64,000 nucleotides of DNA from Quercus robur. Taxonomy: Eukaryota > Streptophyta > Magnoliopsida > Fagales > Fagaceae. The DNA is taken from contig NC_065544.1 of the NCBI RefSeq assembly GCF_932294415.1, positions 17,087,351 through 17,151,350 on the forward strand, written 5' to 3'. Within the stretch, counting starts at the first letter, position 1. The number at the start of each line of letters is the position of its first letter. The notes beneath the pieces were generated by a model. It was not told where the DNA came from. It saw nothing but the letters and a program-made list of their open reading frames with translations, and did not search any database. The position numbers and the translations under genes were made by a program. Positions 17,493-63,689 of the stretch are shown here, one piece after another.

Positions 17493-17494
17493 AT

Positions 17495-17507
17495 TGGTAT
17501 CAGAGCC
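17495..17507 (+). other. Primer-binding site of the Ty3/gypsy element
   Basis: TGGTATCAGAGCC, complementary to the 3' end of initiator tRNA-Met, lies two bases after the 5' LTR. Confidence 0.9.
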
Positions 17508-21960: not shown

Positions 21961-22002
21961 AGGTGGACCTTGGGGGCAAGGTCTTTTTAAGGGGAAGGGA
22001 AT

Positions 22003-22377: not shown

Positions 22378-22382
22378 AGGAG

Positions 22383-37780: not shown

Positions 37781-39206
37781 GTGACTATGGCCACGAAGAA
37801 CTTTGAGCAATTTTCATGTAGGGGTTGTTCATGGATAATCACGATAAATTACACAATCCTCGAAGTGTGTGGTGCACATATCTTTCTTTCTATTTTCATC
37901 CAAACATGTGCTTCCACTGTTCTTCTTTTGTTACCTAAGAGCTATAAATTTAGTGGATATCCTAAGCAAATAATCATTCTGGGTTTTAGTTTCATCTATT
38001 GGTGTTGTTTAGGCAGGTTTGTGGTTTGAGAACCATTTTCATAATATTCGTTTGAGTCGAATACTTATTTAAGATATGGGATCTTATTTACTTTCACTTG
38101 TTAGTTACATGAAAATCAGAGGGTGGATTTCAAGGGATGCTAAAGAAATTTATATTCTTTGGAATTAAATCATTATGGCTAAATATCATCGTTCACTAAT
38201 TGCAACCTGTATTTCCATTTTACTATCTTGTCAGTGGTATCATTCTCCCAAATTTGGTGTTAGGTTTTAATGACCAAATCACATTAATTTATTCAATTAT
38301 TCCATTTCCATCTACTTCTTTTCCTAGGATATTTCACTTTATCATTGTGTCAAAGCAATGATTCTGAGTTTGAATCTTGTCTCTATTTTACCTCTCATTC
38401 AAAAATTAAAAATTTCACATATTAGGTCTTACTTAGTGAGGGAAGCTTATACCCACGTGTGAGGGAGTATTAAAACAATGATTTGTGATTAAATTCATAC
38501 TTTTTATCAAGCTTTAGGGATTGGCGATACTCCCCATTTTAAGTATTAGTCCTTTTTTTTTTTTACTAGATTGCATATTCATATTGAGCTTAAAATAAAA
38601 GTAAATAAAAACAAAGCTAAAACTACAAACAAAAGTAAATATGGATATAAATATATGGACGAGAGAGCCTTGGTGCATTGAATAATCTCTTCACTATTAG
38701 AACACATGCACAAGTGGAAAGTAAAAGTAATGTAGAAAGGGAAATGCTAACGAATTCTAACGAATGTCCTTAAGGCATTCGTTAATAATCCATTTAAAGA
38801 AAGTTTTTATGGGAAAAGAAAAAAAAATTAATATTTTGACAGTTTTTCTCATTTTTCATAAAAGTGATGTCAAAATTTTCCTAAAATAGATTGTTAACTA
38901 ATGTCCCAATGGCACTTGTTAGCATGACCCATGTAGAAATAATACTCATAAGTTAATCACTTATTGAAACTATTACTTTTTTAAAGTACCAACACATACA
39001 TATATATTCCACGGAACACTTATTTAAAAGTTCAAAAGCATTGAGCTCCTAATTTTAAGAGTACTTTGGAGCTCACATAAATTTGTGATTCACTCTAGTC
39101 ACACATTTGTTTTATTATTTTTGACTTGGTAGGACATCAAACCTTTATTTAAGGAACCAACTTAGTTATAATTTTGTAGTCATATTGAGACATTGCATCA
39201 TTATCT
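37781..39206. other. Shared flank between H-protein copy 3 and TPS pseudogene
   Basis: The left part matches 7247-8085 (3' flank of the intact H-protein gene); from about 38300 the sequence also matches 47480-48200 and 63390-64000 (3' flank of TPS copies). This shows the tail-to-tail H-protein/TPS arrangement directly. It contains one MITE. Confidence 0.75.
38739..38930. mobile_element. MITE with 9-bp target duplication ATGTAGAAA
   Basis: Flanked by ATGTAGAAA on both sides (38730-38738, 38931-38939). The ends are GGGAAATGCTAACGA and, read inward, GGGTCATGCTAACAAGTG. The empty site is seen at about 47974 in the TPS flank copy. A relative lies at about 53.8-54.0 kb. Confidence 0.88.
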
Positions 39207-41547: not shown

Positions 41548-42936
41548 GGCGAAAAACACATTTTGGTCCCTACATTTTCAGCCGATTTCCGTTTTAGTCC
41601 CTAAGTTTTTTTTTTACCGCTTTTAGTCCCTCTCCTGAAAAACGCTTCCATTTTAGTCCTTGCCATTACATCAGAAACGGATATTGCAGACGTGGCAAAC
41701 AGCAAAGTTAAATAATAATAAACTAATGTCCACGTGGCCTAAATTAATAATAAAAAATATTTTTTAATGCCACATCAGCATCTAAATTAAAAAAATTAAT
41801 TTATTAATTTTAACTAAATAAAAAAAATTAAAAACAGAATTAAAAACTAAAAATCTTATGAATTGAGATCTAAGTGTGCCTTGAACAAGAACAACAAGAA
41901 CACAAACCCAGAAATTATTTAAAAAAAAAAACTAATCAAAGCCAGCAATTCCAATCTCAAAGCCAACCCACAACCACCAAAATAAAATCCACAACAACCC
42001 AGGCCAAGAAAATCAACCCACAGCCACAAACCCACTAATCACTCGATTGTTGATAATACTAAATAAGAAGCTATTTCTAACATTTAAGGTTACGATCTAT
42101 GGATGAGAGAGAGAGAGAGAGAGAAGAGAGAGGACCTGATGAGAGAGAGGGCCAAAGGAGGCGAGTTCTTTGTGGACGAGATCGCTGGTGGCGATGTGGG
42201 GGACGCCGAGGAGGGAAGAGAGGCGGCTGGCGTAGGTGCCTTTGCCGACGCCGGGGCAGCCGAGGAAAACCCACTAGACATTTCTGTCCTTTGGATCTTT
42301 GCGGCTTAGAGCAGTGGTGTTGTTGAAAGTGAAAGGAGAAGAAGGAGGATTGGTGGTCTCAGATGAAATGGCGGCTGAAGAAGAAGAAGAAGATATGAAT
42401 CTTCTGAATTAGTGGGTTTGTGGCTGTGGGTTGATTTTCTTGGCCTGGGTTGTTGTGGGTTTTATTTTGGTGGTTGTGGGTTGGCTTTGAGATTGGAATT
42501 TCTGGCTTTGATTAGTTTTTTTTTTTTTTTTATAAATAATTTCTGGGTTTGTGTTCTTGGATCTGGGTTTGTGTTCTTGTTGTTCTTGTTGTTCTTGTTC
42601 AAGGCACACTTAAATCTCAATTCATAAGATTTTTAGTTTTTAATTCTGTTTTTAATTTTTTTTATTTAGTTAAAATTAATAAATTAATTTCTTTAATTTA
42701 GATGCTGATGTGGCATTAAAAAATATTTTTTATTATTAATTTAGGCCACGTGGACATTAGTTTATTATTATTTAACTTTGCTGTTTGCCACGTCTGCAAT
42801 ATCCATTTCTGATGTAACGGCAGAGACTAAAATGGAAGCGTTTTTCAGGAGAGGGACTAAAAGCGGTAAAAAAAAAAACTTAGGGACTAAAACATAAATC
42901 GGCTGAAAATGTAGGGACCAAAATGTGTTTTTCGCC
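41548..42936. mobile_element. Pack-MULE carrying an adenylate kinase fragment
   Basis: A 1389-bp element with long terminal inverted repeats (41548-42039, 492 bases, and 42409-42936, about 528 bases) starting GGCGAAAAACACATTTTGG. The right repeat has an extra partial duplication of about 33 bases. It sits in an AT microsatellite, so a 9-bp duplication ATATATATA is compatible but not decisive. The 370-base centre carries part of a host gene rather than transposase. Both repeats contain GTCCACGTGGCC, a G-box-like motif. Confidence 0.93.
42136..42378 (-). pseudogene. Captured adenylate kinase exon 1 fragment
   Basis: On the - strand one frame reads SSAAISSETTNPPSSPF, then SRKDPKDRNV, a stop, [20 protein letters not shown] and [19 protein letters not shown], ending in CATCAG directly before a GT splice donor at 42135-42134. 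GCPGVGKGT is the P-loop of organellar (plastid or mitochondrial) adenylate kinases of the Arabidopsis ADK1 type; the usual residue at the stop is Gln. The exon boundary followed by intron sequence shows that genomic DNA, not mRNA, was captured. It is only the N-terminal part and cannot make an enzyme. Confidence 0.92.
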
Positions 42937-43386
42937 ATATATATATATATATATATATAGATTTGTGGCTGATTATAAGATGTCTTTGATTTATAGGTAA
43001 TAAAGGCTTTACATACAAAGTGGGACCAAGCTAATTGTCATGCTAACTTAAGACCCAGATGTGAAGCACGAATGAAAGATTCAGCCCAAAGTAAAGATCC
43101 AGCCCAAGCGTGAATTCAAGAGAAGACCAAAAACAAAGAAAGAAAAAAAGAAAAAGAAACCCAAGATTCAATCCAATATGGATGAAGTGTGCAAGGAAAC
43201 AAAACTCAAATCAAGCAATTCTTACATAGTCAACATGGTGGGCTTTAGGGTCCAAATCAATAATTGTATTGTTGTTGTGGGCCTCTTGATTTGTTCACCA
43301 AAACATCTACTTAGGAAGTACTTACTTTTGGGCCACGTTGGTTTTAATAATGAGCTTTTAGGTCTTAGCCATTCATGGGAATGTAA

Positions 43387-44066: not shown

Positions 44067-45442
44067 TAAGTATAAATAGAGGGAAATAAGAAATATTGGG
44101 AGCAGCTAGAGGAGAGCTGAAACGCAGGCTAGAAGAAAGCTGAAATAGAGGACCGTGAAGGCTAAAACGCAGTAGCTGCATGTGGCTGTTTTCTTCACCC
44201 TTTCTCTATTCTAGTACTGTAATTTTTCTCTTTCATTCTAGTTAGCAGTTTAATTGTCTAATTTAATGTTCAATATTTATTTTTTGTGTTTTATTTCAAC
44301 TACCATGACTAGCTAAATTTTCAATTAAGGTTGAGGATGAAACCTTCTTAAAGATTATCAGTTTTATTTATGTGAGTTGATTTTTTCCAAAATAGTTGTT
44401 CTTTAATGATTTAAATTGTTCCTGCTTCATTACAATTAACTAAGATAGGATTCTTAATATGAGTTCAATCATGTTTTTCTCATGATTTTGGATTTATCTT
44501 AATTAATTGAATGCTTGATTTATTATTACTTGATTATAAAATTTGATATCTTTTGTGATTTGTTTAGTTATGGATACAATTGATGATTTGATTTTATACT
44601 TAGGAAGAGAAGAAGAGCATGCTTTAGATTTTTAAAATAATAATTTTAATGAGATATTTTCCATGATAGCAAGAATGATTTTTAGATTATCATGCAATAG
44701 TTGGAAAAAAATTAATGATCATAAATATATGCTGATATGATTTATAAGAGGGATTCCAAAACCTTAATTTCTTTCTCTAGATTGTTTAATCTCTTTACTA
44801 CTTTTGTATTATATCTTTTTCTTTGTTTAATTATTTTCTTAGCTTTATTTAATTTCAAAACAATCAATTTTTATTAAACTAAATTAGGATTAATTTGGTT
44901 AAGATTTGATTAATTTTCCTACATTCATACAAGTCTCTATGGGTTTGACCTCGTTCTTGTCAAGCTATACTTCGGTATGGTTCAAACACTTGCGAGTACT
45001 TTAAAATTTCACAACAGAAAGCTTAATTACAACACCAACATAGTGAGATATAGCTAATGAACTTACCTTGAGATATGGCTAAGTTCCTTCTAGTGTTGTT
45101 TTTGCAACATGTTAAAATCCAATTTTGCCAAGTTTAGTAGAACTTCATTACGTGAAGCAATTTCTTGGTAGATAGAAAAGTAATGTCTTGCCTCTACCCT
45201 TGGCAAGGATTTTCGAATAGGCCGATTTAAAGCATGACTTACTTGTGTGGCAAAAGGAGGGCTTAAATTAATCACCATCGATTCGAGGTGAGTGGTAGTA
45301 AACTTAGGTGTTTCATCAAGCATATCTTCTCCATGAACCCTCATGTGAGTAGCTTCATACAAGCTTAACACTCTTTGCACATCTTTAATAAGAGATTCCT
45401 TGAAGTTTCCCCTATTGTCCTTGAATTTATTGAAGACATCTA

Positions 45443-46367
45443 CTTTACCACCCTACACAAGACGTGCACTAACCATTAGTAGATGATATAAAACATGTTT
45501 TATGTTTTTGAAAGCGAAGAGTTCAATTAAACACTTGGCTTCATTTATCAACTAATAACAGTTTTAGGATTTTTTTTTTCTAAGGGGGCCAGTAAGAAAA
45601 TGAATCTTAGGTTAGAGATATATAAATTTTACAGTATATGTGGTTTTCTTATTACAAATTTTTCCATAGGATGTACTAGCAAGAGAATAAGAGATAAACT
45701 ACAAGTTCATTAAGCATATTGTTTTTTAATACAATGACTATACTGATTATTGTTACTAAAAATTAAATTAATCATATTAGTTTAGGACAATTATATGTTT
45801 ACATTGTACTAGCAATGTAAGATTTACATTATAGATTAAATAAATGTGTACAATTTTGTACACATTTGCAAGAAGTGTACAATATTATACACATTTGCAT
45901 AAAAGTGTACAATGTTATACATATTTGTTTAGAGGCAATGTAAATTTTACATTGATAATACAATGTAAATTAATAATTTTCCATTAGTTTATTTTAAATT
46001 TGTTAATATTTAAATGAGTTTTTTCTAAGTTTTAAGATGAACAAATTTCTACATTTATTGTTGGCTTACTATTTTTTATCCTCCAGATTTTAGATAAAAT
46101 TGATTTGTTGTGGGAATTTTTATTTTGCGTTTAAAAAGACCAAGATATTATTAAGAGGATTATATAATTTAAGCTTATTTCAGTTAGGCTTAAAAAAAAT
46201 TTAAGGCCAAGAAGTAAAAATTTTTATTTTATGAGGGTTAAATAAAAGTAAATAAATAAATTATATATTAAAAAAAAAAACAATTGCCAGCTCAGGGGTT
46301 CATTTGAACCCCTAAACTATACATAGCGCCCCCATTCAATCATATCGATCAATCTCTAAGTGTCAAC
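45443..46367. other. Residual TPS intron 2 and AT-rich DNA
   Basis: Starts as intron 2 of the TPS pseudogene (ACTAACCATTAGTAGATGATA resembles the tract upstream of exon 3 at 50.97 kb). TPS exons 2 and 1 are not found. From about 46280 it matches 62850-62950. It contains the palindromic tandem repeat listed separately. Confidence 0.6.
45840..45932. repeat. Tandem array of a self-complementary unit of about 28 bp
   Basis: Three consecutive imperfect copies of a unit like AAGTGTACAATATTATACAC plus ATTTGCA. Each unit is itself nearly palindromic (GTGTACAAT...ATTRTACAC). Flanked by inverted CAATGTAAATTTTACATTG-type sequence, so it may be the core of a fold-back element spanning about 45800-45975. 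Confidence 0.7.
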
Positions 46368-46379
46368 GTACATGTGCTA

Positions 46380-46535
46380 CACCATTGCGCACCCTTGGTG
46401 CGGTGATCACTCCACAAGTATAGGTGCTTGTAGGGTGTGAGGGGCAAGGGCAGAGTTTAAGTCTCCCAGAGTGAGCTTCATACACATATATTTAGGTTAG
46501 ACTAAAGTAAAATTCTATTTATCTCAAAAATAAAT
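46380..46535 (+). mobile_element. tRNA-derived SINE with 12-bp target duplication
   Basis: Flanked by perfect GTACATGTGCTA (46368-46379 and 46536-46547). The body has an A-box-like TGGTGCGGTGATC and a B-box-like GTTTAAGTCTCC, and ends in an A-rich tail (CTCAAAAATAAAT). A second copy in the same context occurs at about 62957-63113, so this insertion predates that duplication. Confidence 0.85.
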
Positions 46536-46554
46536 GTACATGTGCTATGGATAC

Positions 46555-47225
46555 TGATAAGGGTGTTTTTGGTAATAAAATTGAGGCCCATAGGAGAATC
46601 GAGAGGCCAATGACTTCAAAGAAATTGTCGGCTTCCTTAGGAATTGACGACCGTGAGGATAGTTCAAAAACAAAGCCGACAGTGCATCTCCCTACCTGGC
46701 AATCGGAGGATCCCCTAATTGATGGAATCCCCTAGTTGACGGGGACAAATACCAACGGGTCCCATATGGCCTTGCGTGGCCTTACGTGGCCTTACATGGC
46801 CCTACGTGGCCTTACATGGCCCTACGTGGTCTACACAGATACATTTATGGAAACATCTTGCGCATCATGCACAAAGACTCTACCACATGATTTTCACCTT
46901 CCCAAAATGGAGAATATCCCTAAGATTTTGATAGCATTAAATTCTCCCTCTCCCCATAAGGAAAATCCCCCTATTCTCGGGATATTGGGCTCTTCCCCAC
47001 CACTATATAAACAATAGTTCTCTTCCTTTCTAAGGTACGCAGAAAATCCCTAACTCTCTCACTATAGAGTTCTTAGAGATTTTTCATTCACTAACTTAAC
47101 CTTCAGAAGGTTTTTGGCCGGTACCACACTGGTGCCTTTTGTTTGGTTCTTGTTTTCTTATTCTGTAGGTATCCATCAACATGATCAGGAGCAATCAAAT
47201 CATTGACAATTTTCGTTCATCATCA
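46555..47225 (+). mobile_element. Solo LTR (671 bp)
   Basis: Begins TGATAAGGG and ends TTCATCATCA, flanked by the 5-bp duplication GATAC (46550-46554, 47226-47230). The sister locus near 63129 has the empty site. Inside are a tandem of about five GGCCTTACGTGGCC-type units (46767-46830) and a TATA-like CACTATATAAACAATAG near 47000. No internal region accompanies it, so it is a solo LTR fossil. Family unassigned; Ty3/gypsy is possible. Confidence 0.88.
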
Positions 47226-47230
47226 GATAC

Positions 47231-48202
47231 GTTGCATTTCTAATTAAGTTTGGAAAGTGTTGCTATAAATGCTTCATTATTCACTTCACCATTGATGACT
47301 TTTGTACTTGTTAATTAGCTAGTTAGTAAAACTTCCAATTTTCATGACTAGATTCACATGTTTAGATCATTAACAATTTTTTTTTTTTAAAAACAAATCA
47401 CATGCTTAATGTTAAAAAGATTACAAGAAACAATGAAATATTGTGAACGTAGTATTTAGTGACTGAATCACGTTAATTTCTTCAATGATTCCTTTTCATC
47501 TACTTTTTTTTCCTTGATATTTCATTATTATGTCAAAGCAATGATGTTGAGTTGAATCTTGTCTCTATTCTACCTCCTACTCAAAATTAAAAAAGTCATA
47601 ATTTAGGCCTCACTTAGTGCGGAGAGTTTAAATCGACATTGGTGAGGAGCTATTAGAATAATGATTAAGTGAATAAAATAACCTTTTTCTTATCACCTTA
47701 GGTTTTTGGGATTTTCAATATCTACAATTAAAAGAATTAATCGTAATTTTTTTATTGCATATTGAAATTCAGAGCTCAAATATAAACTAAATAAAAACAA
47801 GTTTAAAACTACAAAAAAAAAAAAAAGGATAAATATTATTATGTAGAAGAGACAAAGTGCGTTGTCGCATTGAATAATTTGTTCATTGTTAGAACAAATG
47901 CACAAGAAACATATATTAATTATTGTGGATTAACAAAGCAGAGTTCTACAAAATGGAACAGTATGAGAAAAGTAATGTAGAAATAATTCTCACACATTAA
48001 TCACCTATTGAAACAACATTTATTCTGAAAAAACATTGGGCTCCTAATTTTTAGAGTAATTTGGAGTACAAGTAAAATTTTCACGCTAAACACTTACACA
48101 TTTATTTTATATTGACTTCGTAGGACAGTTTATCAAATCTTTATTTAAGGAACCAACTTAGGTATAATTTTGTGCTCATATTGAGCACTGGCATCAATAT
48201 CT
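47231..48202. other. TPS 3' flanking DNA, duplicated at 63.1-64.0 kb and 38.3-39.2 kb
   Basis: No gene is seen. The whole stretch has a close relative at 63131-64000 and a more diverged one at about 38300-39206. Confidence 0.75.
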
Positions 48203-49744
48203 TCAAATTGGTACTGGATCAACAAGCATTGAGGTGATACCCTCTACCATCACTCCTCCAAGATGTGTGTATGCATCTTCATCCTTGTAGAGTAAATCCA
48301 TAACTCGTGCAAGATTGACAACACGTGTAAGGAGAGGTACTGGCACTTCAGTAGGTCTAAGACACTCTTTGTTTATTTCCTTCCATGCATTCACGATTTG
48401 CTTTCGAAATTCGTCATGTACCTCTTGCTTTGAGACACCATATTGCTTCATGTAACACTCAATGCCCGAGGCAACGTGCCCTCTCTCTTGCTCAAACTGT
48501 AAAAAAATAAATTCCCAAAATATGTAATAAGTGTCATTTTTTGTTAGGCCTAAATGGATATGTGGATCCATTTGAAATGAATCAATTTCTTGCTTTAAAT
48601 AGTAAAAAGTTATAGGTGTATCTAATACGGTGTTTTTTTAATATTTTAAAAGACCTAACAATTTACATACTATTTACTAGATTCAAAAACAAAATTTGAA
48701 CCATGTCATCAATTTGTAGGTGGATCTAATTCCTTGTAGTACTGAACTAGTCTCTCATATACATTATTGAAGTAAAAATACTGGAAAAAGTAAGAAGATA
48801 GTTATTACGAGTGAATTTGTATATTTTCTATAATTTTTGTACATACTGCACGTAGGAGGATCTTATAATTGGATTAAAATTGTGATGCCGCAAATTGATT
48901 GGATATTGATTAAGTGTGTGTCGTGCAGGTGTGTTGAGTCTAACATTAGATATATATTGGGTTGATTTGAGATTTATAATAACAACAAGAAACTTAATTG
49001 TGACTGGATTAACTATTTTAAGGTGTAGCACAAATGTGACATAATGATTTTTTTTTTTTTAAAGAATAATTAACGTCCCTTAATTTTAGCCACAATGCTC
49101 AATAAGATCCACTAATAATACGTGCTATATAACATTTGCTAAATGTACCTCATTGGAAACAACATCATCCATTAGCCTGCATATGATTGATGCTGCTCTA
49201 ACAATCTTTGGCTCCTTGATGACCCATTCCAATGCTTCCTTGGTCGCGATATCTCCCATGACAATAAAAGATAAGGTGCTAAGCGTGAGGTAACCACAAG
49301 ATATTAGTGCATTACTCATATATTCCTCCACTGTGGGAATATATTTTTCTTTCAACCATACGGCTTCTTCAAAGTAGGCTTGAACAAGTTTTTTCATCTA
49401 GTCACATTAACATATAAAATATTGATAACTATAAAATGAGAATTAATGGGAAAAAAAATAGAGTGGTTTCAAGTGAATTAATAGTGTCTTACTACAACTT
49501 TTGCGTAGTAAACACAGTATAATCTTCCATCCTTGCACATCTCTTCTTCAATTTCTTTAAAAACATCCAAGAGTACTTTATAACACAACTTCATGTATTT
49601 TGGGAGTTGGTCTATGCAACTTATATCCCACCTGAAATTTAAACGTTTGAATCATGTTTGCAATGTTGACTTATACCCCAAAACTTTAAAAATAGGGCAG
49701 GGCTGACTTCATGTATTTTGGGACTTAAGGCAATAACCAAATTG

Positions 49745-49793
<49 letters not shown>

Positions 49794-51812
49794 GATCAAT
49801 TCTGTGTGTGGAACACTATGAGTTTTATACTCTAAAACTTCCACATGAAAAAAACCAACAGTCAGTTATACATTAAAAGAAAATATATATTTTTATAAAA
49901 GTGGTAATAGTTTTAGCGTTTTAATTTTTAAAAACATTATTTTTCATCTATTGGTTAATATGGGCTTAATTAATATTTTTACAAGTAAAGATACATCCTT
50001 ATTGGTAAAGATACGACCTTGAAAAATGATATTCTCCATTCTAATAGAAATTGAGAAAATCCATTTCATGGTTACAATTTTATTTTTGTAATTTGATAGT
50101 GCATAGGGTACTCCATCATTTAAAATTTTAAATGTTGTCGTATTGGATACATCTTTAGATTTATAATATTTAATTTGAATCATGATATCAATCCATTTCA
50201 AATGGAGATGAAGAGGATCCTATATGCTTGCATTAAACCTTTTAATTGCGTCTGTGAAGAGCTCGAGTTCTTCATGTGTGCCATATGCATCATATATGTC
50301 ATCTATGATTGATGCCATGCAAATTGTTTTGGTAAGTATCCTTCGAGCAAGAGAGTATTGGGGTTCAAAGTACACTCCCAAAATCCAGAAGTATAACTCC
50401 ACCACCCTATCTCGTGCAAAAGATAGGTTTGTCGCAACATCTATACCTTTCCACCACCTAAATTACAATTTCAACAAAAACTAGTTGGTCAAATCATGTC
50501 TAATGAAAGCTTAATTACAACACCAATGTAGTGAGATATAGTTAATGAACTTACCTTGAGATATGACTGAGTTCCTTCTGGTGTTGTTTTTGCAACATGT
50601 TGAAATCCAATCTTGCAAAGTTTAGTAGAACTTCATTATGTGAAGCATTTTCTTGGTAGATAGAAAAGTATTGCCTAGCCTCTACCCTTGGTAAGCACTT
50701 TCGAATAGGCCGATTTAAAGCATGGCTTACTTGTGTGGCAAGAGGAGGGCTGAAATTAATCACCATTGATTCAAGGTGAGTGGTAGTAAACTTAAGTGCT
50801 TCATCAAGTATATCTTCTCCATGCACCCTCATATGTGTAGCTTCATAAAAGCTTAACATTCCTTTCACATCGTTAGTAAGTGATTCCTTGAAGTTTCCCA
50901 TATTGTCTTTGAGTTTGTTGAAGATATCTACTTTACCACCCAGCACAAGACATGCGTGAGCCATTAGTAGATGATATGAAAATAATGATGGAAGTGAATG
51001 CTTGATCATGAAAATTAACTTTTAGCTTGTTTAAGGATATGTTTGGAATGAAAAGAGAAGGAGGGAGAGGTGAGGAGAATAGAGGGGAAGGATTTAAGGA
51101 AGACAGAATACATTAAAATTTAGAAAATTCCAATCACCTGCTCCTTTCTCTTATCTCCCTCCATCCAAACATAGAGTGAGTTTTCTTAAATAAACAAATA
51201 ACCGACCAAAAGAGTGCTTACCACTTGGAATGTTATAACCTTGTTGTCTAAGTAATCGAAAATGAAGTGCAACGGTGTAAAGAGCATCATCACTTTCTTG
51301 GACATCACACGTATAATGATACTTGTGAATTTGTTGTAATACTTCATCAATCTCACCTTCAAAATGGTAGGACACTCCTAAGCGTTGGATTGCATCAATC
51401 AACTCCAACTTTTCTAGAAGATTATCGATGGGAGCCATCAACATCCTTTGCACTTCTTCCTTCAACCCTTGGACTTGCTCCGAGTAATCAATGGTTTCCT
51501 AAAGTTGGAAATCGAAATAAAATATAAACATGTTACCACTGTTTATAAGCATCTTTTGTCATTTAAAGATGATGTATTTTAAGACCATGACATTTGAATA
51601 TTGGCTAAGAAATGAACAGCAATTTATATTAGAATATTAATTTTATTATGTAGCCTAACATGTCAGGTGGAAGACATATATACCTCGGATTTATTAGAAT
51701 AAGAGAGGAAATGGTCTCCCCATAAGCTTGGACGATAATTTGCTGAGCGACGATGTACCTTAGCATCTGGATTTTGGGTTTGAGCAGTAGCCATGCAAAT
51801 TTGGTGAGACAT
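48203..51812 (-). CDS. TPS: Terpene synthase, TPS-a type (probably sesquiterpene synthase), intact, 7 exons
   Basis: Exons: 51812-51684, 51498-51222, 50930-50555, 50457-50239, 49631-49493, 49397-49149, 48496-48203; lengths 129, 277, 376, 219, 139, 249 and 294 follow the standard seven-exon TPS layout and chain without a stop into 560 residues. RRx8W is at 21-31 ([11 protein letters not shown]), RDR at 276-278, the Mg2+-binding DDIYD at 313-317, and the second metal motif DDVVSNEFE at 457-465. No plastid transit peptide precedes RRx8W, so the enzyme is probably cytosolic and uses farnesyl diphosphate; the product cannot be read from sequence. A second in-frame ATG (codon 7) is an alternative start and matches the start of the 9-kb remnant. 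Intron 4 is lengthened by an insertion. Confidence 0.95.
49640..50150. mobile_element. Insertion in TPS intron 4 with hAT-like edge and AT/GT microsatellite
   Basis: Intron 4 is 607 bases here but about 135 in the pseudogene. The extra DNA has GGGCTGACTTCATGTATTTTG, which resembles hAT subterminal sequence, and an (AT)n(GT)n microsatellite at about 49747-49793. Exact edges and class are unsure. Confidence 0.45.
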
Positions 51813-51926
51813 TTTGGGAGGTGAGAGAACAACTTAGTGTTGAAATGGTGCAATTAGCAAAAGCTTTAATGTATGCTTCTTGTCCTTCAAAAGACTGGCA
51901 TGAGAGGAAGAGCTTATGTGCTTAGG

Positions 51927-51934
51927 TATTTATA
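51927..51934 (-). promoter_or_regulatory. TATA box of the intact TPS
   Basis: TATAAATA on the - strand, about 115 bases before the first ATG, in the context CTATATCTATAAATACC. The surrounding 5' region (about 51813-51980) has degraded relatives near 55.5 and 62.7 kb. Confidence 0.6.
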
Positions 51935-51980
51935 GATATAGCTGAGGCATGCACTTTGGTTACGTTTGATAAGTCTATTT

Positions 51981-52421
51981 GAGAATGCATTCCTTCATTT
52001 TTTTTTTTTTAATAGATTATCTTTGGTGTTATTTTGGAACTTTTAATGAAGGTTGATTTATTTTTTTCAACCTTTAAGTAGGTACCTTGCATTAATTAAC
52101 CACAACCATAAAGCTTTATAATGATACAATTGACTTTTGTATTTTCTAATTTTCTAGAAGCATGTGAGCAAAACTTATGGCAATAAAATTGTGGTCGATA
52201 TGAAATTTGGAAGAGATTTCTTCAATTTTTCTTGGACTAAAAGAAAAATGAACAAACATATATCAGTGACAGCTCCTCCCCTTTTCTCTTCTATCTTTGA
52301 GTTGAGAATCATAGTTTTCTCCTTTCTGATGTCATCTGAATGATATATGTGAAGGTGGTTTACATGAATTTCATACTAAACTAAGTTAGTATAGGAATTT
52401 GAATGTAAAGATGTTAGAATT
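51981..52421 (-). promoter_or_regulatory. Upstream region of the intact TPS
   Basis: Contains a tract (CTTGCATTAATTAACCACAA to GGCAATAAAATTGTGGT, about 52085-52195) that is repeated near 62350-62465, upstream of another TPS-derived segment. It ends where the long palindrome starts. Confidence 0.5.
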
Positions 52422-52723
52422 TGTAATACCTGAAAGGAAAAAAAAAAAATTTAAAGGAGGGTATTTAAGTAATTTTCTTTTGTGGGGGTCAATTTTATAA
52501 TTTATAATTATAAGGGAGTTTTTAGAAAATAAGGTTGAAACCCTAGTTATATATAAATTTATTAAGTCAACGTACATTGAGAGATATTTTGAGAGAGAAA
52601 ACTACCCAAAGGACTGAAGTAGAGAAGGATTGACAACACCCTTGATGTAAAAGCTTAAGAAATCTTGTTCTTTGGTCAAATTTAGAATTTATGTGGTATT
52701 AGAGATTTTTTTTTTTTTTTTTT

Positions 52724-52877
52724 GAATTTTGCTAATGTGTGCCCTAAGGGCACACAATAATTAATTATTTTTAGAAAAAAAAATTTAAAAATTGAAAAAG
52801 TATTGACAATTTTTTCAATTTCTGAAAAAATATTTTAAAAAATAAATGACTTAAAGGTACACATTAACCGAAATTTT
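52724..52877. mobile_element. MITE in left palindrome arm
   Basis: Begins TTTTGCTAATGTGTGCCC and ends GGTACACATTAACCGAAAT, an imperfect inverted pair; absent from the right arm. Confidence 0.6.
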
Positions 52878-53794
52878 TTTTTTTTAATGTGGATATTTTG
52901 GTCAAGAAGTGAAACTATTTAACTATGTAATGAATTTTACGATTTGAACAGAAGAAGGGATTAAAATATATTATCGGTATCTGTACTGTTTCGTTAAAAG
53001 ACATTCTTTTCCTACGCCACTATTGCGTTAAGCATGGATGGATATGCAGAAAATTAGGTATGGTCACGGTGGTCCGGTTTTACACAATTTTTGCCTTCGA
53101 AAGTTGTACTTTTGGTAAATAGGAAAGTCGATGCAGCAGCAGCAACATCATATTGATGATGTAAGTGTGTCGGTATAGATGAAACAAGCCGCCTTAAACT
53201 TCTTTTTACTATTATATTTATTATATTTTGTTTATTGGTTTTGGTAGGGGTGAACAGGGAGTCGCTGAAGTCTGACAAGTCATAAATTATAGTGAAAAAA
53301 AAAAAAAAAAAAAAAAAGCTGTTTTTCCGTAAGGCACATGACCTACCTTGTACTTGGAATTGTCTTCATCTCAAAAGATGATAATCGGGGCAGGTGGCAG
53401 AAAAAAAAAACGTGTATATGAAGAAGAGTCCACGTGTTGCTCTTTTTTTTTTTTTTGAGAAACACGTGTTGCTCTTCTTCTACAAGTGACTTTTACCCTT
53501 TTTTTTTTTTGGTAAGCGACTTTTACCCTTATGCATTCTATAGGTTCCCTTCAAAAAAAAAGTCACTTGTAAAAGATGAGCAACACGTGGACTCCTCTTC
53601 AGATACACGTTTTTTTATTTTTCTACGTCTGCCACCGTTATCATCTTTTGAGATGAAGACAACGCCAAGTACAAGCTAGGCCATGTACCTTACGGTAAAC
53701 AGCCATTGTTTATTTATTTATTTTTCACTATAATTTATGACTTGTCAGATTTCATTGACTCCCTGTTCACTCCTATCAAAATCAAAAAAAAGAA

Positions 53795-53985
53795 AAAGAA
53801 AGCTTAACGAGTGTTTTTAGAAACATTGATTAATAATTCATTTAAAGAAAGTTTTTATGAAAAATAAAAAAAGTAATTAATATTTTAATAACTTTTTTCA
53901 TTTTCCATAAAAGTGATATCAAAATTTTCCTAAAACAGATTATTAATGATTGCCCTTAGAACACTCGTTAGTATAACCCTAAAAA
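53795..53985. mobile_element. MITE in right palindrome arm, relative of the 38.7-kb MITE
   Basis: Inverted ends CTTAACGAGTG and ACACTCGTTAG enclose TAATTCATTTAAAGAAAG and ATCAAAATTTTCCTAAAA, shared with the element at 38739-38930. Absent from the left arm. Confidence 0.75.
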
Positions 53986-54341
53986 AAATATAATAATAAA
54001 AAAGAAGTTTAAGGCTGCTTGTTTCTTGTTTTAGCCCTCATCTATACCGACACACTTACATCATCAATATGACGCTGCTGCTGCAGCATCATCCACTTTC
54101 CTATTCACCAAAAGTACAACTTTTGAATGCAGAAACTGTGTAGAACCGGACCACCACGACCATGCCTAATTTTCTGTATATCCATCTATACTTAACGCAA
54201 TAGTGGCGTAGGAAAAGAATATCTTTTATCGAAACAGTATTTTACGCCACCTCTTGACCATATGTTTTCTCTATCCCTTCTTCCGTTCAGATTGTAAAAT
54301 TCATTAGATATTTAAATAGTTTCACTTCTTGGCCAAAATAT

Positions 54342-54380
<39 letters not shown>

Positions 54381-54640
54381 CTAATACCACATAGATTCTA
54401 AATTTGATCAAACTTAATTCAAGGATATAGTCAATCATTCTCTACTTCAGTCATTTGGGTAGTCTTTTCTCTCAAAATATCTCTCCATGTACGTTGACTT
54501 AATAAACTTATATATAGCTAGGGTTTCAACTTCATTTTCTAAAAACTCCATTATAATTATAAATTATAAAATTGGCCTCACAAAAGAAAATTACTTAAAT
54601 ACCCTCCTTTTAAGTTTTTTTTTTTCTTTCGGGTATTACA

Positions 54641-55789
54641 TAATTATTGCTAATAGCTTAAACTTTTCAGATGATGGGTAAATTAACATGGTACTAAAAC
54701 AAGAGAGTCTTGAGTTTGATTCATTTTTTTACTCTACAATCAGTAATTTGTCACTTTTAACATCTTCATTTTTTAGATGCAAAACAGTTTGTCTTGGTTA
54801 CATACCTTATCTTATTATTTTATCCAAAAACACAAACAACTGTTATCAAGCCTATATTACATATGTACTTAATTAATAAAGTAGGTCTTTAGTGTGGCAA
54901 AAAGACATAATTTTTGTCACATCTGTTGTGGATGCTCTTACGTGTAAAAGAATAGTTCACAAAAGCCATTCTCTGTTATCTAGAATTATATGCCCATGTT
55001 TCTTATGTGTTTTTCTCACAAATTGAAATGTCAAATCCCTACATGTAAGTGGACAAAACCATGCACAAAAGGACATATTGAGCAAGTGGGAGATGACAGG
55101 TACATGTGCAATTTCACATTCAGAGTAAATATTTTTCTCCCATTATTATAAATAAAAAATAAAAATCTAAGAAAGTTCATGTCAAGATGATCAATTTGAT
55201 TTCTAAGTGTTAGTAATTAAGTCAGTTTGACCCAACCCATAGTGTATGGTCCATTGATTACTTGATAAGTGAATTTAAATTTGAGTTGCAATCTAAACTA
55301 ATCTTGATATGAGTTGTCAAGATAACATGGTGGAGTTGGATTTTTAGATGGATATTAGAATTGATTAAATGTGGTTGTGCTTATTTTTTAATATGTGATA
55401 AGATAATGTTATGACATGTTTGGATTGGAGGGTATAAAATTTTAGTTTTACACCACATTCTTATAGAATTTAAAATCTTTAAACATTAGCATGAATGAAA
55501 GAGCTATGCGCTTATACGTACTGATATTTATAAGTTATAACTGAGGCACGTACTTAGAACCTCCTTGCATGGATTTTTTTTTTTTTTTTTTTTTTGCTCT
55601 AATTAATTACCTTCCCACAATATTTTCCTTTTGGATTATCAAGTTGTATTTTCCTCCCACTCAGAACCCGTCAAACTCAAGCTTAATTTGCCTCAATATT
55701 AATATTGGAAAAGAAAGGAAAACTGTAACCTAATTTTCATCTTGTAATCAGAACAACTATATCAAGTTAACGACAAAAATATATGGTAA
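54641..55789. other. Intergenic DNA with TPS upstream remnants
   Basis: The tract near 55010-55110 (CTCACAAATTGAAATGTCA, CCATGCACAAAAGGACA) matches 62490-62600, and 55480-55560 (GCATGAATGAAAGAGCTATG) resembles the 5' region of the intact TPS. No exon is seen. Confidence 0.55.
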
Positions 55790-55794
55790 TAATA

Positions 55795-56896
55795 TGAAAG
55801 TTCAAAGAGTGTGTAAAACACCCTTGAACGTTTAGACCCACAATTACAAAATAACCAATTCAAGTTTTATGTCAAACAACTAGTGTGCGGAAAATGAATA
55901 AAAGTTATAAACAGAATCGGTAAACAATCTAAGCCAATTAAAATCACAATCCACAGCAGATAATAAAAGGCAAAGATAAAAGGGAAGGAAGATGCAAATA
56001 CAAGGACAACGCGCGATATGTTATCGAAGAGGAAACCGAAGCTCTCGGCGTAAAACCTCTCCGCCGCCCTCCAAGCGGTAAGTAATCCACTAAAAAATGT
56101 AGTTGGGATACATGGACAGTAATAGACCCTCCAAGCCTAATCTACCCAGTGCACCTAAGCCCTCCAAGCTTCTTGCTCCAATGAGGTTGCGCCGAACCTA
56201 TTTCTTTTCTAGTTTCCCGGATTCCGCTACTTGACCATAGCATCAACCAATGTAGATTGGTTCCTTCCTAACTGCTTCCTAGAACACCAAACAGCCCTCT
56301 CACAGAAATGGATATGGTGAGAATAGGTTTTGATAAAAGACCTCTTAAGGGTTTAACAATGGAGATGAAGAGAGTTGAGAAATTTGAAGAGACTCTTATG
56401 TAAAGATTGTAGATGAATCAATCTTATTTTACTCTAGGGTTTCTCTCTCAAAATTCTCTCTGGAAACTCTCTTTCTTTTGTGGGTATAAGGGGTATTTAT
56501 ACTAGGGTGAGAAAGGAATGTGAAACGTCAGGTTTTTCAAAACAGGGCTGGCTCGCGGCTTGGCCTCGCGGCTTAACTGAGTCGCGAGATCCAGCCGTGC
56601 GATAACAGAACGGCCAGTTGTCCTATTTTGTCCTGTAGTACTCCAGCTAGCATGACGCTTCAACTTCTGGCATGCTTGGCACGTGTGCTGCTTCTGGCGG
56701 CTTGCAGCCGCAAGTCACCCGCGAGATCCAACCGCGAGACTCTGTTTTCTTGCACACTCTTGAGCATTCAACACTCTATCTCACTCACTACCCTTACAAC
56801 AAATCCACCTAAATATAGGGTTACTAATTGCTGAAATACAAGCAAATTTGGCACGGAATAAAGTCAACAAAATGGTTGATTAAATTCAACCTTACA
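55795..56896 (-). repeat. 3' LTR of the gag-only element
   Basis: Direct repeat of 61155-62243. It ends next to the purine-rich tract at about 56897-56909. Confidence 0.92.
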
Positions 56897-59800
56897 ATCT
56901 CCCCCTTTGGTTATTTCGTGACAAAACCCTAAAACAGACTCTAGACTTAACATGTGAGTTGGGAACAGTTGAGCAAAACTCACTCACACCTAATTCTAGA
57001 AACTGTGAGGCACTTGAATCATATGAGCATGAAACTCCCAAAATACAACAATACACCATGATCATTGTATGCAGAAAACATGAAATGCATATGAAATAAG
57101 CATAAAGTGATCAAGCGAAGATGAAGTTAAGAAACAAATCATGGCTTGATCAAACAAGTAATCACTGCAAGGTAGTGACCACAGTGCTCATTCACACTTG
57201 GAATAAACACTTGAACATACAAGCTAACAAGAACAATGCAAGTTACTTGTATGCCCAACACTCAACCAATGCATAATACACCAAGTATATGTATCTACGA
57301 ACAATCCTACAAGGGTACAAGAGTGACAGTACTTAACAGGAAAATGCATGACATTTAGATAGAAGTACTGATTTAACAAAAATATAGAGGCTGCATAAAG
57401 CATGGTACAAACCATAAAGCCTACAGGAAATAAACCCTAAAAGCTTACAAAAGTAACATGGATACAAACCACAAAATACTAAATATAAACTTAAACAATA
57501 TAAACTAAAAGTGCTTGAAGTTTCTCCCCTTCAAAGTGATGAGAAGTTGTGATACACTTGGAACATATATACTTGTAACCTGAAACACTTACACAAAACA
57601 CATTAGACCCTCAAGGTAAAGCAAGTAATAAAATGACAAGTATAATGTAACAAGTAAATTGCGATCAAGTAAACATGATGTGAAACATGTGAGCAACTTG
57701 ATCATACACCAAAACAGTCATATAGAAATGACTATAATGATCACATAGCAAAGCAAATGATCATATGAATATGCATTCAATGAAGCACAATAGCATAGGG
57801 ATATATGCATGTTTAAAACAAAAACATGATGCGATGAGAACCACAAAGCATAACTCAAAGCACCATAAAGCCAACAAGAAAACAAACAGAACAAAGTTTT
57901 CTTATTATCTCAATGTCTTCTCCCTCTTGGTATATGCATATCTTCTATGGAATATCTCCCCCCCTACAAATGTGCATGAGAAATAGAATTTCTCCCCCTA
58001 AGGATGTGCACAAGAGTCATATAGAAATGACAAAACACTCCGGTATACTCTCTAAAGTATACTCTCCCCCTTTTTGTCAGGAATAGACAAAGGGTCAAGA
58101 AGAAACGAGGGCAAGAGATGGAGGTACGAACAATGATAATGATGCATGAGGGGCGCAAGATGAATGAGAAAATGAAGTTCAAACCTAAGACAATGTAAAA
58201 TGCTACAGAGCATAAGGTAGACATGACATGCTAGGATGAAGAAGCAAGGTCAAGACCAATGCATGAAAAATGCACATGTGGGGCATGTTAAATACACAAC
58301 CAATGAATCAAACATATTCCTAATAAGGAAACATGAGAATCCCCAAAATTTGGTACTCATTGGAGTCCAAACAAGCGAGAAAATGTCTAAGAGGCATTTT
58401 ATCAAACACCTAGCATGCATACTATGAATAATAATGTGAAATAATGCATGAACATCATGAAATCCACCCTTAATACATGTTCTTTCTGCCATAAGGGGCC
58501 AGCATCCAATGCAAATCAGCAAAAGAAACCAATCCCATGAAGAAATTTGACAAAAAAATAAGTTTTCCCAACCCCTATGATAAAAATCCCAACCAAGAGT
58601 ACAAAACTCTCCAAAACATAATCTAAGGATCAAAATTAATGAAAAGAGTTCATAATTATCTTAAAAATGTTAATGGAATGAAAAAAATCATTCAAATTGA
58701 TTGGGTTTAGATGTAAAAATATTGAAAGAGGGATTTAAGAGAAGATGGGAGAGGTTTAAAACAAGTTTCCCACGAAAAGCTCTTTAAAAAGCTGATTCTG
58801 GGCATTTCGTGACTGGCGAGTTGCGAGTGAGTCGTGAAACCATTTTGTGTAAAACTCGCAACTTAAACTCGTGGCTGCAAGCCGCCAAAATGAGTAGCCA
58901 AAACTGGCAGCTTGCTGGCAGCTCATGCAAGTAGCCAAAATGAGTAGCCAAAAATTCTGACACTTGTTTTTCAAAATAGAACATGTTTAAACAATGAAAA
59001 ACAAAGTAAGTACTAAACATGAACACAAAGAGTGATAAAAATCACTTCCAAAAACATATAAAATGATAAAAAAATCTTTTTGGATTAACCTATATATGAT
59101 TGAGCACACACACATCACATTTAGACAAGTACAATCTAACAAATGAATAAGATATTCATTAAACATTAGGCATGTGTGTTGTGTATGTGTATCAAATGTG
59201 GAATAATCCTTAGTTTAGAGTGAAACTTTAATAATCAATTCAATCAAGTCATACACAACTAGTACTAAGTCAAGTGGTCTATCTCAATTATAGAAATGAA
59301 CATATATGACCTCCCACAAGAAAATGATTACATACAATGAAGCTTTTCATTTGGCTTCTTTACAATTCATAACATTTGATTATTTTGAATCAAAACATCT
59401 CATTTTGAGATCGATGTCAGAAATTTGTGATATTTCAATTTGATGAACAAGCCTTTGGCTTTTTGGGCATCATACATTTTCATATAAGTTGCTTTCCCTT
59501 TTTCCTAGTTGAATATAAGTATGTGCTACAGCTTTTACAGCTCATTATCTCTTTTCATTTTGAGATTTACATTTATTGAGCTCTTTAAGTAATAAAAATA
59601 AAAGAGTGGGAAGAGATATAAGCACAAGTCTACGCATGTATCAAAACCAACATGACTATTGACTAATCATTCATGACAAGCTTGAAAATCGATTTACAAC
59701 AATCACACAAAGATGTCAAGATTTTTCCCATAAAGATATATGTGCAAAAATAACAAGCTAAGCTCGTAAATGCATAAAGCCATTTGTACAAAGGTACAAG

Positions 59801-60097
59801 GCCAAACTCATATGCGATATGTGCTCAAACATATACGATCAAACTTTTTGAATTTTTCACTTTTTATGAGGTTTTAGATTTTTTACTCACACAAAACTGA
59901 AATATAAAAGTAAGATAAAAAAAACAAAACAATGCATACAAATAAATGCAAGATGCACAAAATGCATGAAGATATGATATTTAATGCATGAAAGGTCCTA
60001 CAAAGATCGAAAGAATTAGATTAAGGACCAAAAGAGTAAAAGCTCAACCATAGGAACCCTTCCTCATCCAAACGGAAAGATTGTTTGGAATGAGTGT
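56897..60097 (-). other. Non-coding interior of the gag-only element
   Basis: About 3.2 kb without recognisable protease, integrase, reverse transcriptase or RNase H motifs in any frame I read; it has many short AT-rich frames. Confidence 0.65.
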
Positions 60098-61165
60098 CTA
60101 AAGAAAAGTGAGACGAGGGTTGGAAGAATGAGAACCAGAGATGCACATAGTCAAGGAGTTAAGAGCATTAAATATTTTCTTTAACAACATGCTATTTTCA
60201 CTCAAAACTAGTTTACTCTTTTTAGCACAACTTCCAAAAAGCTCAAGTTTTTCTTGTCTTTTGATTCTTTTAACAGCATGAAACTTAGAGCATTGAGGTC
60301 TTAGATGACCAAAGGCACCACAATGGTGACAAACAATGTGTTTAGGTCCACTAGGATTTTTGGGAAGGGATCTAGCAACATGGTTTTGTTCCCTCTTCAA
60401 CTTATGACATTGAGGTCTTATATGACCAATCACACCACAATGGTGGCAAGTTGGAACAAACTTAGATCCATCTAAAGCCTTAGGTTGAAACCTAAACGGA
60501 GGCTTTAACTTAACAGCCTTTCTCTCCACCTTTTGATTTCTTTTATGTGGAGGAATGTACACCGATTTGTCTTTTGAGGTAGAACACACAATAGGCACAA
60601 AATCGGGTACCACAACATAATTGCAACAAATATTGTCATCCCTTTTATCAATGGGTTCAGCAATCAAACACTTGGCATACATTTTAAGAGATTCATTTTC
60701 ACATTTTAACTCATCAACAAGTTTGTTAGACAAAACAAGTTTAGCATCCAAGTCTATATTCAAACATTCAAACTCTTTTAGATTTTCAAGAGAACCTTCA
60801 GCAAGTTTTTTATATTTCTCAACCAATTTGTTGGATTCATTGAGCTTAGCAATCAAATCATCATTTTCACAAAATAACTTGCTCAAATTCTTTTGAAACT
60901 TCTTAGCATTTTTCTTCAAGAGTTTGTCATTTGGAATATCAACAACATCAAATGATTCATGCAACATAGCATCACAATCATGAGGATCCACACTCATAGA
61001 GGCATTTTCACAAACACGTGACATGCTACATTTATCATCAACCAAATCATATAAAGAGGCATACAAAGCACAATCCATGACAAATAAACACAAGGGGTCA
61101 AGGATCACACTTAGGTATTTAAACCACAACAAGTGTATCCACTCTGATACCAATTGAAAGTTCAA
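60098..61165 (-). pseudogene. Partial gag of the gag-only LTR element
   Basis: The region encodes a Lys/Leu-rich coiled-coil-like segment followed by a basic stretch (PPHKRNQKVERKAVKL) and two zinc knuckles, CHHCGVIGHIRPQC and CHHCGAFGHLRPQC. The usual N-terminal gag domain is not present. It is treated as a fossil part of the element. Confidence 0.8.
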
Positions 61166-62243
61166 ATAGTGTGTAAAACACCCTTCAACGTTTAGACCCC
61201 CAATTACAAAATAACCAATTCAAGCTTTATGTCAAACAACTAGTGTGCGGAAAATGAATAAAAGCTATAAACAGAATCGGTAAACAATCTAAGCCAATTA
61301 AAATCACAATCCACAGTAGATAATAAAAGGCAAAGATAAAAGGGAAGGAAGATGTAAACTCAAGGACAACACTCGATGTGTTATTGAAGAGGAAACCGAA
61401 GCCCTCGGCGTAAAACCTCTCCGCCGCCCTCCAAGCGGTAAGTAATCCACTAAAAAATGTAGTTGGGATACATGAATAGCAATAGACCCTCCAAGCCTAA
61501 TCTACCCAGTGTACCTAAACCCTCCAAGCTTCTTACTCCAACGAGGTTGCGCCGAACCTATTTCTTTTCTAACTTCCCGGATTCCGCTACTTGATCATAG
61601 CATCAACCAATGTAGATTGGTTCCTTCCTAACTGCTTCCCAGAACACCAAACAGCCCTCTCACAGTAATGGATATGGTGAGAAAAGGTTTTGGTAAAAGG
61701 CCTCTCAAGGGTTTAACAATGGAGAGGAATAGAGTTGAGGAATTTGAAGAGACTCTTATGTAAAGATTGTAGATGAATCAATCTTGTTTCACTCTAGGGT
61801 TTCTCTCTCAAAATTCTCTCTGGAAACTATCTTTCTTTTGTGGGTATAAGGGGTATTTATACTGGGGTGAGAAGGGAATGTGAAATGTCAGGTTTTTCAA
61901 AACAGGGCTGGCTCGCGGCTTGGCCTCGCGGCTTGACTGAGTCACGAGATCCAGCCGTGCGATAACAGAATGGCCAGTTGTCCTATTTTGTCCTGTAGTG
62001 CTCCAGCTAGCATGACGCTTCAACTTCTGGCATGCTTGGCACGTGTGCTATTTCTGGCGGCTTGCAACCGCGAGTCACCCGCGAGACTCTATTTTCTTGC
62101 ACACTCTTGAGCATTCAACACTCTATCTCACTCACTACTCTTACAACAAACCCACCTAAATACAGGGTTACTAATTGCTGAAATACAAGCAAATTTGACA
62201 CGGAATAAAGTCAACAAAATGGTTGATTAAATTCAACCTTACA
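61155..62243 (-). repeat. 5' LTR of the gag-only element
   Basis: Direct repeat of 55795-56896; the primer-binding site lies immediately inside it (about 61143-61153, read on the - strand). Confidence 0.92.
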
Positions 62244-62248
62244 TAATA

Positions 62249-63689
62249 TTCTTATGAGTTTCAATCTCTCTTTAATTTTTTTTCCTTAAAAAAAAAAAAA
62301 AAAGAAGAAGTCATTTTCTCTCTCTTGAAATTTTTATCATCCACCTTAATAGGTATCTTGCATTAACCACAGCATGGTCCACAACTATAAAGCTTTATAA
62401 CCATATTTTTCTGACATTTTAGAATTATGAGAGCATATGTAACTTATGGCAATAAAATTGTGGTTGACAAGGAACTTGGAAGATTTTTACTCACAAATTG
62501 AAAGGTCATGGCCCTATACGTGTACATAGACAAAAACCCATGCACAAAAAGACAGATGGCCTCCCATTGAAAATCAGAGATGACAGGTTTATGTACGCTT
62601 CCATAGGTGACTCACAGCATTTTGGGGGGTGTAGATAAGGAGCAGTTGGCTTAAGCCTTTAATGGATGCCTCTTGTCCTTCAAACTCTAGCATGAAGGAA
62701 AAAGCTTATGCACTTATATGTACTTATATTTACAACCGAGGCTTGTACTTCTAAATAATGGAACCTTGCTCCTTGCATGGACAATTTTTTAACGATAACG
62801 ATACAATTGTATTTTCTGACTTTCCTGAAGCATGTGAGCAAAACTTATGGGTTATACAATTGCCAACTCAAGGGTTAATTTGAACCCCTAAACTATACAT
62901 AGCGCCGCCCATTCAATCATATCGATCAATCTCTAAGTATCAATGTATATGTGTTACATCATTGCGCACCCTTGGTGCGGTGATCACTTCACAAGTATAA
63001 GTGCTTGTAGGGTGTAAGGGGCAAGGGCAGGGTTTAAGTCTCCTGGAGGGAGTTTCACATATATATACACTTAGATTAGACTAAAGTAAAATTCTATCTA
63101 TCTCAAAAATAAATGTGCATGTGCTTCGGATACATTACATTTCTAATTAAGTTTGGTAATTGTTGTTATCAATGCTTCATGATTCACTTCGCTGGCATTG
63201 ATGACTTTTGTACTTGTCAATTAGCTAGTTAGTCAAATTTCCAATTTTCATGACCAGATTCACATGTTTAGGTCATTAACAAATTTTAAAAAAAAAAAAA
63301 AAAAATCATGTGCTTAATGTTAAAAAGATTACAAGAATCAATAAAATGTTGTGAACGTAGTTTTTAGTGACCGAATCATGTTAATTTCTTCAATGATTCC
63401 TTTTCATCTACTTTTTTTCCCTGATATTTCATCTACTTTTGATCCAGTGAAGTAATGATGTTCAGTTGAATCTTGTCTCTATTCTACCTCCTACTCAAAA
63501 ATTAAAAATGTCATAATTTAGGCCTCACTTAGTGCGGAGAGTTTAAATCCACATTTGTGAGGAGCTATTAGAATAATGATTAAGTGAATAAATAACTTTT
63601 TTTTATCACCTTAGGTTTTTGGGATTTTCAATATCTACAATTGAAATTCAGAGCTTAAATATAAACTAAATAAAAACAAGTTTAAAACT

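Follow-up and report, generated by a model that had tools for sequence, protein, structure and literature searches.

A 2.2 kb near-palindrome of LTR sequence upstream of a Quercus robur terpene synthase gene, probably inserted in a single abnormal retrotransposon integration

How did a 2.2 kb near-palindrome come to lie directly upstream of a terpene synthase gene of Quercus robur, and does it do anything there? The structure lies in a stretch of 64,000 nucleotides, hereafter the window (contig NC_065544.1, positions 17,087,351 to 17,151,350; G000:C40:17087351-17151350 in the genome of 786 Mb and 42 contigs that we searched). A preliminary description had reported two arms of about 1.05 kb with independent MITE insertions, some 0.6 kb before an intact synthase, and had proposed a regulatory or silencing element. 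Self-BLAST and global alignment over 52422-54640 confirmed that the near-palindrome is real, with a 5' arm at 52422-53494 and a 3' arm at 53558-54640 separated by a spacer of 63 bp. When the MITE-like inserts are removed, the arms measure 891 and 877 bp and are 88.5% identical (722 of 816 aligned columns; K2P 0.126), the 94 differences (11.5%) comprising 54 transitions and 40 transversions. Self-BLAST resolves the similarity into three inverted blocks, 52418-52707/54645-54376 (84.9%), 52887-53225/54347-53980 (81.8%) and 53231-53449/53789-53571 (84.6%). Arm similarity stops at the outer edges, TGTAATACC at the left end and GGTATTACA at the right; the self-complementary AATT of the flanks makes the BLAST blocks overrun these edges by 4-5 bases. 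The inserts are indeed independent, one at approximately 52705-52886 occurring solely in the 5' arm, with inverted ends visible in the sequence, and the other at approximately 53790-53995 solely in the 3' arm, with a further copy at 38758-38944 (79%). The structure is not an assembly fold-back, as had been argued from the arm-specific inserts; besides these, a second copy that has diverged on its own is present 135 kb away, and three sites are empty. The window had no match in Rfam at gathering cut-offs, the palindrome had none in a plasmid collection, which is not of plants, and one 21-base arm stretch had no exact match in viral_contigs or genome_contigs, which are not plant collections either.

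The adjoining gene, at 48206-51812 on the minus strand, is apparently complete, as previously supposed, with seven stop-free exon pieces whose edges were set by eye. Terpene synthase domains of Pfam are matched by four of these pieces, and the best match among solved structures is (+)-delta-cadinene synthase, so that the product is likely a sesquiterpene synthase. Its start codon at 51812 places the palindrome edge (52422) 610 bp upstream, in agreement with the distance first given, the intervening upstream region being 51813-52421 (minus strand). Partial synthase copies occur elsewhere in the window, two exon matches among them containing stops. Older tandem fragments of the synthase promoter, split by both insertions, are found at 62244-62860, beyond an LTR element, and a tandem array with promoter sequence at G000:C40:17466040-17482240 contains 21 short matches to the synthase-promoter block, spaced mostly about 770 bp apart.

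The origin of the arms became apparent from the genome search, in which the palindrome had at least 160 matches (40 of 3499 candidates scored), including six direct-orientation pairs 4-7 kb apart that are LTR-like. From these matches 19 regions were chosen and fetched beside the second palindrome, and all 19 contain the outer block of the arms, the inner block or both. In 7 of the 19 LTR starts shown (the second LTRs of L010, L011 and L012, the 3' LTR of L015, and L016, L019 and L028), the arm-start sequence is immediately preceded by a polypurine-tract (PPT)-like stretch, ATAAGTGGGGGAGAT (ATAAATGGGGGAGAT in L016), such as precedes the 3' LTR of a retrotransposon. Protein evidence comes from a relative at C6:39093122-39100251 (L014), which has in common with the arm the outer 280 bp only. 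This element has LTRs of about 2.1 kb that are 92% identical, an LTR end GTGACA followed by a primer-binding-site (PBS)-like TGGTATTAGAG, a perfect 5 bp target duplication AATAT and, in frame order, matches to RVT_1 (1.3e-27), Integrase_H2C2 (6.3e-17) and SH3_Tf2-1 (8.3e-28); for the chromodomain that marks the integrase end of chromoviruses, a Chromo match (7e-5) reaches 23.1 bits, below the cut-off of 25.1. L010, which has both inner and outer blocks, has one frame of at least 120 aa, located past its second LTR start. In L010, L017, L020, L021 and L025 the LTR sequence runs on past the turn-around point of the palindrome, and on the 5'-arm side of the palindrome itself LTR sequence proper extends to about 53544, beyond the arm limit at 53494. 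Since the LTRs of the relatives are longer and continue past the turn-around point, each arm is the first part, with the U3 end outward, of a longer LTR of a Ty3/gypsy-type group that is widespread in the genome; both arms come from LTRs of one low-copy subgroup. The 5' arm reads rightwards (plus strand), away from the synthase, whereas the 3' arm, the first part of a second, inverted LTR, reads leftwards (minus strand), in the direction of the synthase. The outer part was also considered as a short LTR in its own right that would stop at the PBS-like TGGTATTAGAG near 52693; this was rejected, the LTRs of the relatives extending far beyond that point.

Ty3/gypsy elements whose LTRs start with TGTAATACC, which may be Tekay/Del chromoviruses, resemble the locus and its relatives in the LTR start, the preceding PPT-like stretch, the PBS-like stretch and the 5 bp duplication. 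They differ from the palindrome in having direct LTRs that flank an internal region with PBS and PPT, whereas the palindrome consists of two partial LTRs, inverted and joined, with no internal region. Its ends are nevertheless those of an LTR insertion, of the form TG...CA (TGTAATACC...GGTATTACA) and enclosed by a 5 bp duplication that agrees at 4 of 5 positions (GAATT/TAATT). We also considered a MITE, that is, a DNA-transposon derivative with terminal inverted repeats of under about 0.8 kb, and rejected it for a structure of 2.2 kb with arms of LTR sequence. A foldback or long-terminal-inverted-repeat DNA transposon of the Mutator-like kind would explain the overall shape, and an inverted repeat at 41526-42959 of the window does resemble such an element; with a duplication of 5 bp, where Mutator-like elements typically make one of 9-10 bp, and with arms that match LTRs having PPT and PBS in other copies, this explanation of the palindrome is very improbable. 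The inverted repeat at 41526-42959, the second long one in the window, has arms of about 530 bp at 91% identity, lies between TA microsatellites and encloses a fragment with similarity to adenylate kinase (Pfam ADK 1.2e-6); it has the look of a Mutator-like element that captures genes and has TA repeats as its target.

The target site indicates how the arms arrived. The left duplication, GAATT, occupies 52417-52421 and the right one, TAATT, 54641-54645, with one mismatch between them, which counts against a single integration. A search with the left flank gave 39 matches (34 of 34 candidates scored), from which eight loci, including both filled sites, were compared, the other 31 matches being mostly short. 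Three close promoter paralogs of the same cluster, L041, L042 and L043 (C40 near 17370748, 17458594 and 17551048), are free of the palindrome, and all three read GTTAGAATTATTGC (GTTA-GAATT-ATTGC) and match from flank to flank as GATGTTAGAATT-ATTGCTAA. The two filled sites instead read GATGTTAGAATT-palindrome-TAATTATTGCTAA, that is, GAATT-palindrome-TAATT. Three more distant left-flank loci (L044-L046) have no palindrome arms, and a paralog at 62330-62557 was rejected as an empty site, the flanks of the palindrome being missing there too. The surroundings of the empty sites vary: L041 has the first synthase exons in normal order, L042 almost no synthase exon alongside, and L043 (G000:C40 near 17551048) a rearranged synthase copy whose exon 3 match has the opposite orientation to those of exons 1 and 2. 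One 5 bp duplication enclosing both arms argues for integration in a single piece; the inverted LTR pieces would thus have entered the target GAATT as one unit with a U3 end at each side. The alternative, that two separate LTR elements inserted nearby in opposite orientation and a later deletion removed all between their LTR 5' parts, is disfavoured because independent elements would leave unrelated outer flanks, whereas in comparison with all three close paralogs the outer flanks are one target duplication around one empty site; moreover, neither arm is preceded by a PPT-like stretch. Inverted pairs of related LTRs do exist, which speaks for this alternative, as at G000:C3:37944712-37955853, where two LTRs of about 2.3 kb each face U3 outward and enclose a nested 5.9 kb LTR element (LTRs 99.6% identical), with a PPT-like stretch before the right LTR.

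The second filled site, at C40:17274800-17277099, 135 kb away, lies within a segmental duplicate that covers at least 44244-62846 of the window, and its palindrome is likewise upstream of a synthase gene, with all seven exon matches free of stops. The duplicate is about 97% identical from 49800 onward and about 90% further left; the step falls at 49770-49800, inside the synthase gene, and could be an edge of recombination or conversion. Between window and second copy the arms differ by 43 substitutions in 2084 positions, about as much as the adjoining LTR element (125/6410) and less than the 5' part of the gene at 49800-51812 (68/2013); the right flank (11/1152) and the promoter (2/606) have changed less than the arms. 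The two palindromes are one event, copied by later segmental duplication. Their centres differ, the second copy having a duplication of 125 bp and the window copy an extra stretch of about 30 bp, which would fit instability of a palindrome centre. An LTR retrotransposon at 55795-62243 of the window has LTRs of 94.1% identity and is bounded on either side by the 5 bp duplication TAATA; it contains a PBS-like TGGTATCAGAG and, on the minus strand, a zinc-knuckle frame. A direct repeat of 384 bp at 17110-17493 and 21995-22378 (97.9% identical), with TGGTATCAGAG at 17495, is probably a young LTR element.

Whether the two arms descend from one template or two was addressed with trees of 16 sequences, four of which are the palindrome arms from both filled sites; copies whose inner-block matches are weaker or partial (e.g. 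C37:30497717, C4:6730195 and C1:51330731) stayed outside. In the inner block the arms are sisters (UFB 96), which argues against two separate elements, and the AU test there rejects a grouping of L010b with the 3' arm (0.037) or with the 5' arm (0.005), whereas the SH test rejects neither (0.149 and 0.128). The outer block places the 3' arm with L010b (82), arms as sisters staying possible (AU 0.169). In the full-arm tree support is 87 and 88, and the 3' arm with L010b survives the AU test (0.167), a result that favours two separate elements, as does the raw distance, each arm being nearer L010b (0.079 and 0.105) than the opposite arm (0.126). Derived states common to the arms alone number seven, compared with five for the 3' arm and L010b and one for the 5' arm and L010b. 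Given the empty sites, the history of two insertions and a deletion is quite unlikely.

For dating, the window was compared with the second copy (gene body 29/1213, 2.4%; near right flank 5/364; promoter 2/606) and with the closest empty copy, L041 (gene body 49/1186, 4.1%; right flank 8/232; promoter 9/606). Had the arms been identical at insertion, L041-scaled divergence would be expected to reach at most about 3.6% by the gene body, 5.2% by the right flank and 9.3% by the promoter, the last value resting on two substitutions. Scaling by the gene body of L043 gives 5.1%, and the promoters of the more distant L042 and of L043 give about 17% and 23%. Two templates are favoured because the arm divergence of 11.5% looks above the post-insertion expectation; the arms were likely already different at integration, two related templates having been joined rather than one, with the qualification that gene conversion among paralogs could disturb all such dating. 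The region 51813-52421 is itself far more alike between the filled copies than the gene body is, which could reflect constraint or conversion.

We therefore consider it probable that the palindrome arose by one abnormal retrotransposon integration, most simply of a palindromic cDNA bounded by two U3 ends. During reverse transcription, DNA begun at the U3 edge would run into the LTR; about 0.9 kb in (inserts excluded) the growing DNA would turn back, on itself or on a sister molecule; and copying back to the U3 edge would yield a palindrome whose two termini are both U3 ends, which integrase could then insert. Plain snap-back of one molecule fits less well than two templates, given the divergence of 94/816. 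At the turn-around region (53495-53557), about 14 bp missing from other LTR copies end in an A-run, the palindrome reading CTATAGGTTCCCTTCAAAAAAAAA and the other copies CTATAGGTCTTATCC or similar; the match of A-run and TTTT at this point is weak evidence in AT-rich DNA. A search with the 323 bp inner block gave at least 44 matches (40 of 43 candidates scored), and among the matches listed the only opposite-orientation pairs within 3 kb are the palindrome and its segmental duplicate. On this evidence the palindrome is a rare accident of known machinery. Among the papers listed, judged by title and start of abstract, none described a palindromic U3-U3 LTR insertion, which does not imply that no such report exists.

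With regard to function, the preliminary description had drawn attention to G-boxes at the centre. CACGTG is indeed present there three times (53431, 53463 and 53584; 13 times in the window), but the motif is LTR sequence, found also in L017 and L020 and replaced by CACATG in L010 and L021. The three central occurrences are one LTR motif multiplied by the inversion and by a local duplication with a T-run in the 5' arm (about 53436-53468), which bears the second CACGTG. The expectation of a long hairpin, if the locus is transcribed, was borne out by folding, the two strands giving predicted energies of -1180 and -1166 kcal/mol with 757 and 750 arm-to-arm pairs, compared with -381 to -650 for five other 2219 bp stretches of the window; with inserts set aside, the longest exact stems measure 33 bp. 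A TATA-like stretch directed inward, identified from the letters, is present in each arm, and that of the 3' arm reads toward the synthase.

The proposed silencing element, taken as sequence-matched silencing of the synthase, is not supported. The best match of any palindrome 21-mer to the synthase exons (edges by eye) covers 17 of 21 positions, a level much like that of six shuffled controls. For the same reason it is scarcely credible that the locus is an inverted duplication of synthase sequence making anti-synthase small RNAs, as in the model of a young miRNA or hairpin gene: it has in its favour the position and the hairpin shape only, whereas its exon homology is no better than that of shuffled controls, its arms are LTRs, and of the seven arm 21-mers that recur elsewhere in the window the five displayed are TA repeats. 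Other members of the LTR family are a different matter, since 437 of 3110 arm 21-mers, counted on both strands, have an exact match in other family loci that were fetched, and silencing in trans is therefore possible. If transcripts through the arms folded or paired, Dicer-like enzymes could make small RNAs from them, which could guide methylation of the palindrome and of further LTR copies in the family; any effect on the synthase would come via spreading chromatin marks, the synthase being a neighbour and not a sequence target.

Several known systems bear on this scheme. Mu killer of maize is a dominant locus that silences its parent transposon family; its description (PMC3440606) questions the read-through hairpin first proposed and prefers antisense transcripts that start within the locus, to which a long hairpin might contribute; the centre of the locus was not sequenced. 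In Mu killer, two copies of one transposon end (TIRA) face outward and each extends about 1.3 kb inward to an inverted junction, and here, similarly, the same element end lies at both outer edges, both being U3 starts. Mu killer differs in being derived from a DNA transposon and including transposase gene sequence, whereas the palindrome consists of LTR pieces placed by a retrotransposon-type integration; furthermore, silencing has been demonstrated for Mu killer, whereas for the palindrome it would be a prediction. The resemblance in anatomy to Mu killer makes it plausible that the palindrome gives small RNAs against the LTR family. Among gene-proximal inverted repeats of Arabidopsis, 486 of 634 are reported to make 24-nt siRNAs (Arce et al. 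2023, as cited in the review PMC12595863); these repeats likewise lie within 3 kb of a gene and are largely transposon-derived, being particularly MITEs of the MuDR family, whereas the palindrome is LTR-derived. In sunflower, according to the same review, a 260 bp MITE 600 bp upstream of HaWRKY6 was reported to give siRNAs and loops (PMC12595863); like the palindrome, it is an inverted repeat inserted some 0.6 kb before a gene, and it differs in being a 260 bp MITE and not a 2.2 kb LTR palindrome.

Transitions between the arms have no wobble-compatible bias on either strand (30 vs 24, P 0.50), and we rejected selection for hairpin pairing for lack of any sign of it in these transitions. At seven usable CpG sites the arms keep six and four, and the other LTR copies two to six; a CpG pattern of poor outer and rich inner blocks was rejected as a methylation trace, the same trend in other LTR copies marking it as a family trait. 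Inter-arm transitions at cytosines are more frequent in CG context (12/65) than in CHG (7/76) and CHH (35/399), a mild excess and a weak hint in favour of a function. For an inert relic that neither yields RNA nor has any effect, we see an even balance: the single event, the decaying arms, the absence of pairing-keeping substitutions and a CpG retention like that of other copies favour it, nothing speaks directly against it, and it is compatible with the single-integration origin. To be set against it are two stop-free synthase genes downstream and near-perfect stems, of a general type reported in the review PMC12595863 to make 24-nt RNAs in Arabidopsis. An active small-RNA role for the palindrome is a tentative and somewhat doubtful proposal. 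The fullest version, a natural LTR counterpart of Mu killer in which a palindromic cDNA from two related templates, inserted by integrase, now gives small RNAs that silence its family in trans and its marks tune a duplicated pair of synthase genes, is unlikely.

From the empty sites it seems that the machinery of a retrotransposon is able to integrate a palindrome that presents one and the same LTR end at either side. If true, this would represent a direct route from ordinary retrotransposition to a double-stranded-RNA locus, of the kind able to start family-wide silencing, and the gene cluster, with two promoters that carry the palindrome and close ones that do not, offers a natural comparison.
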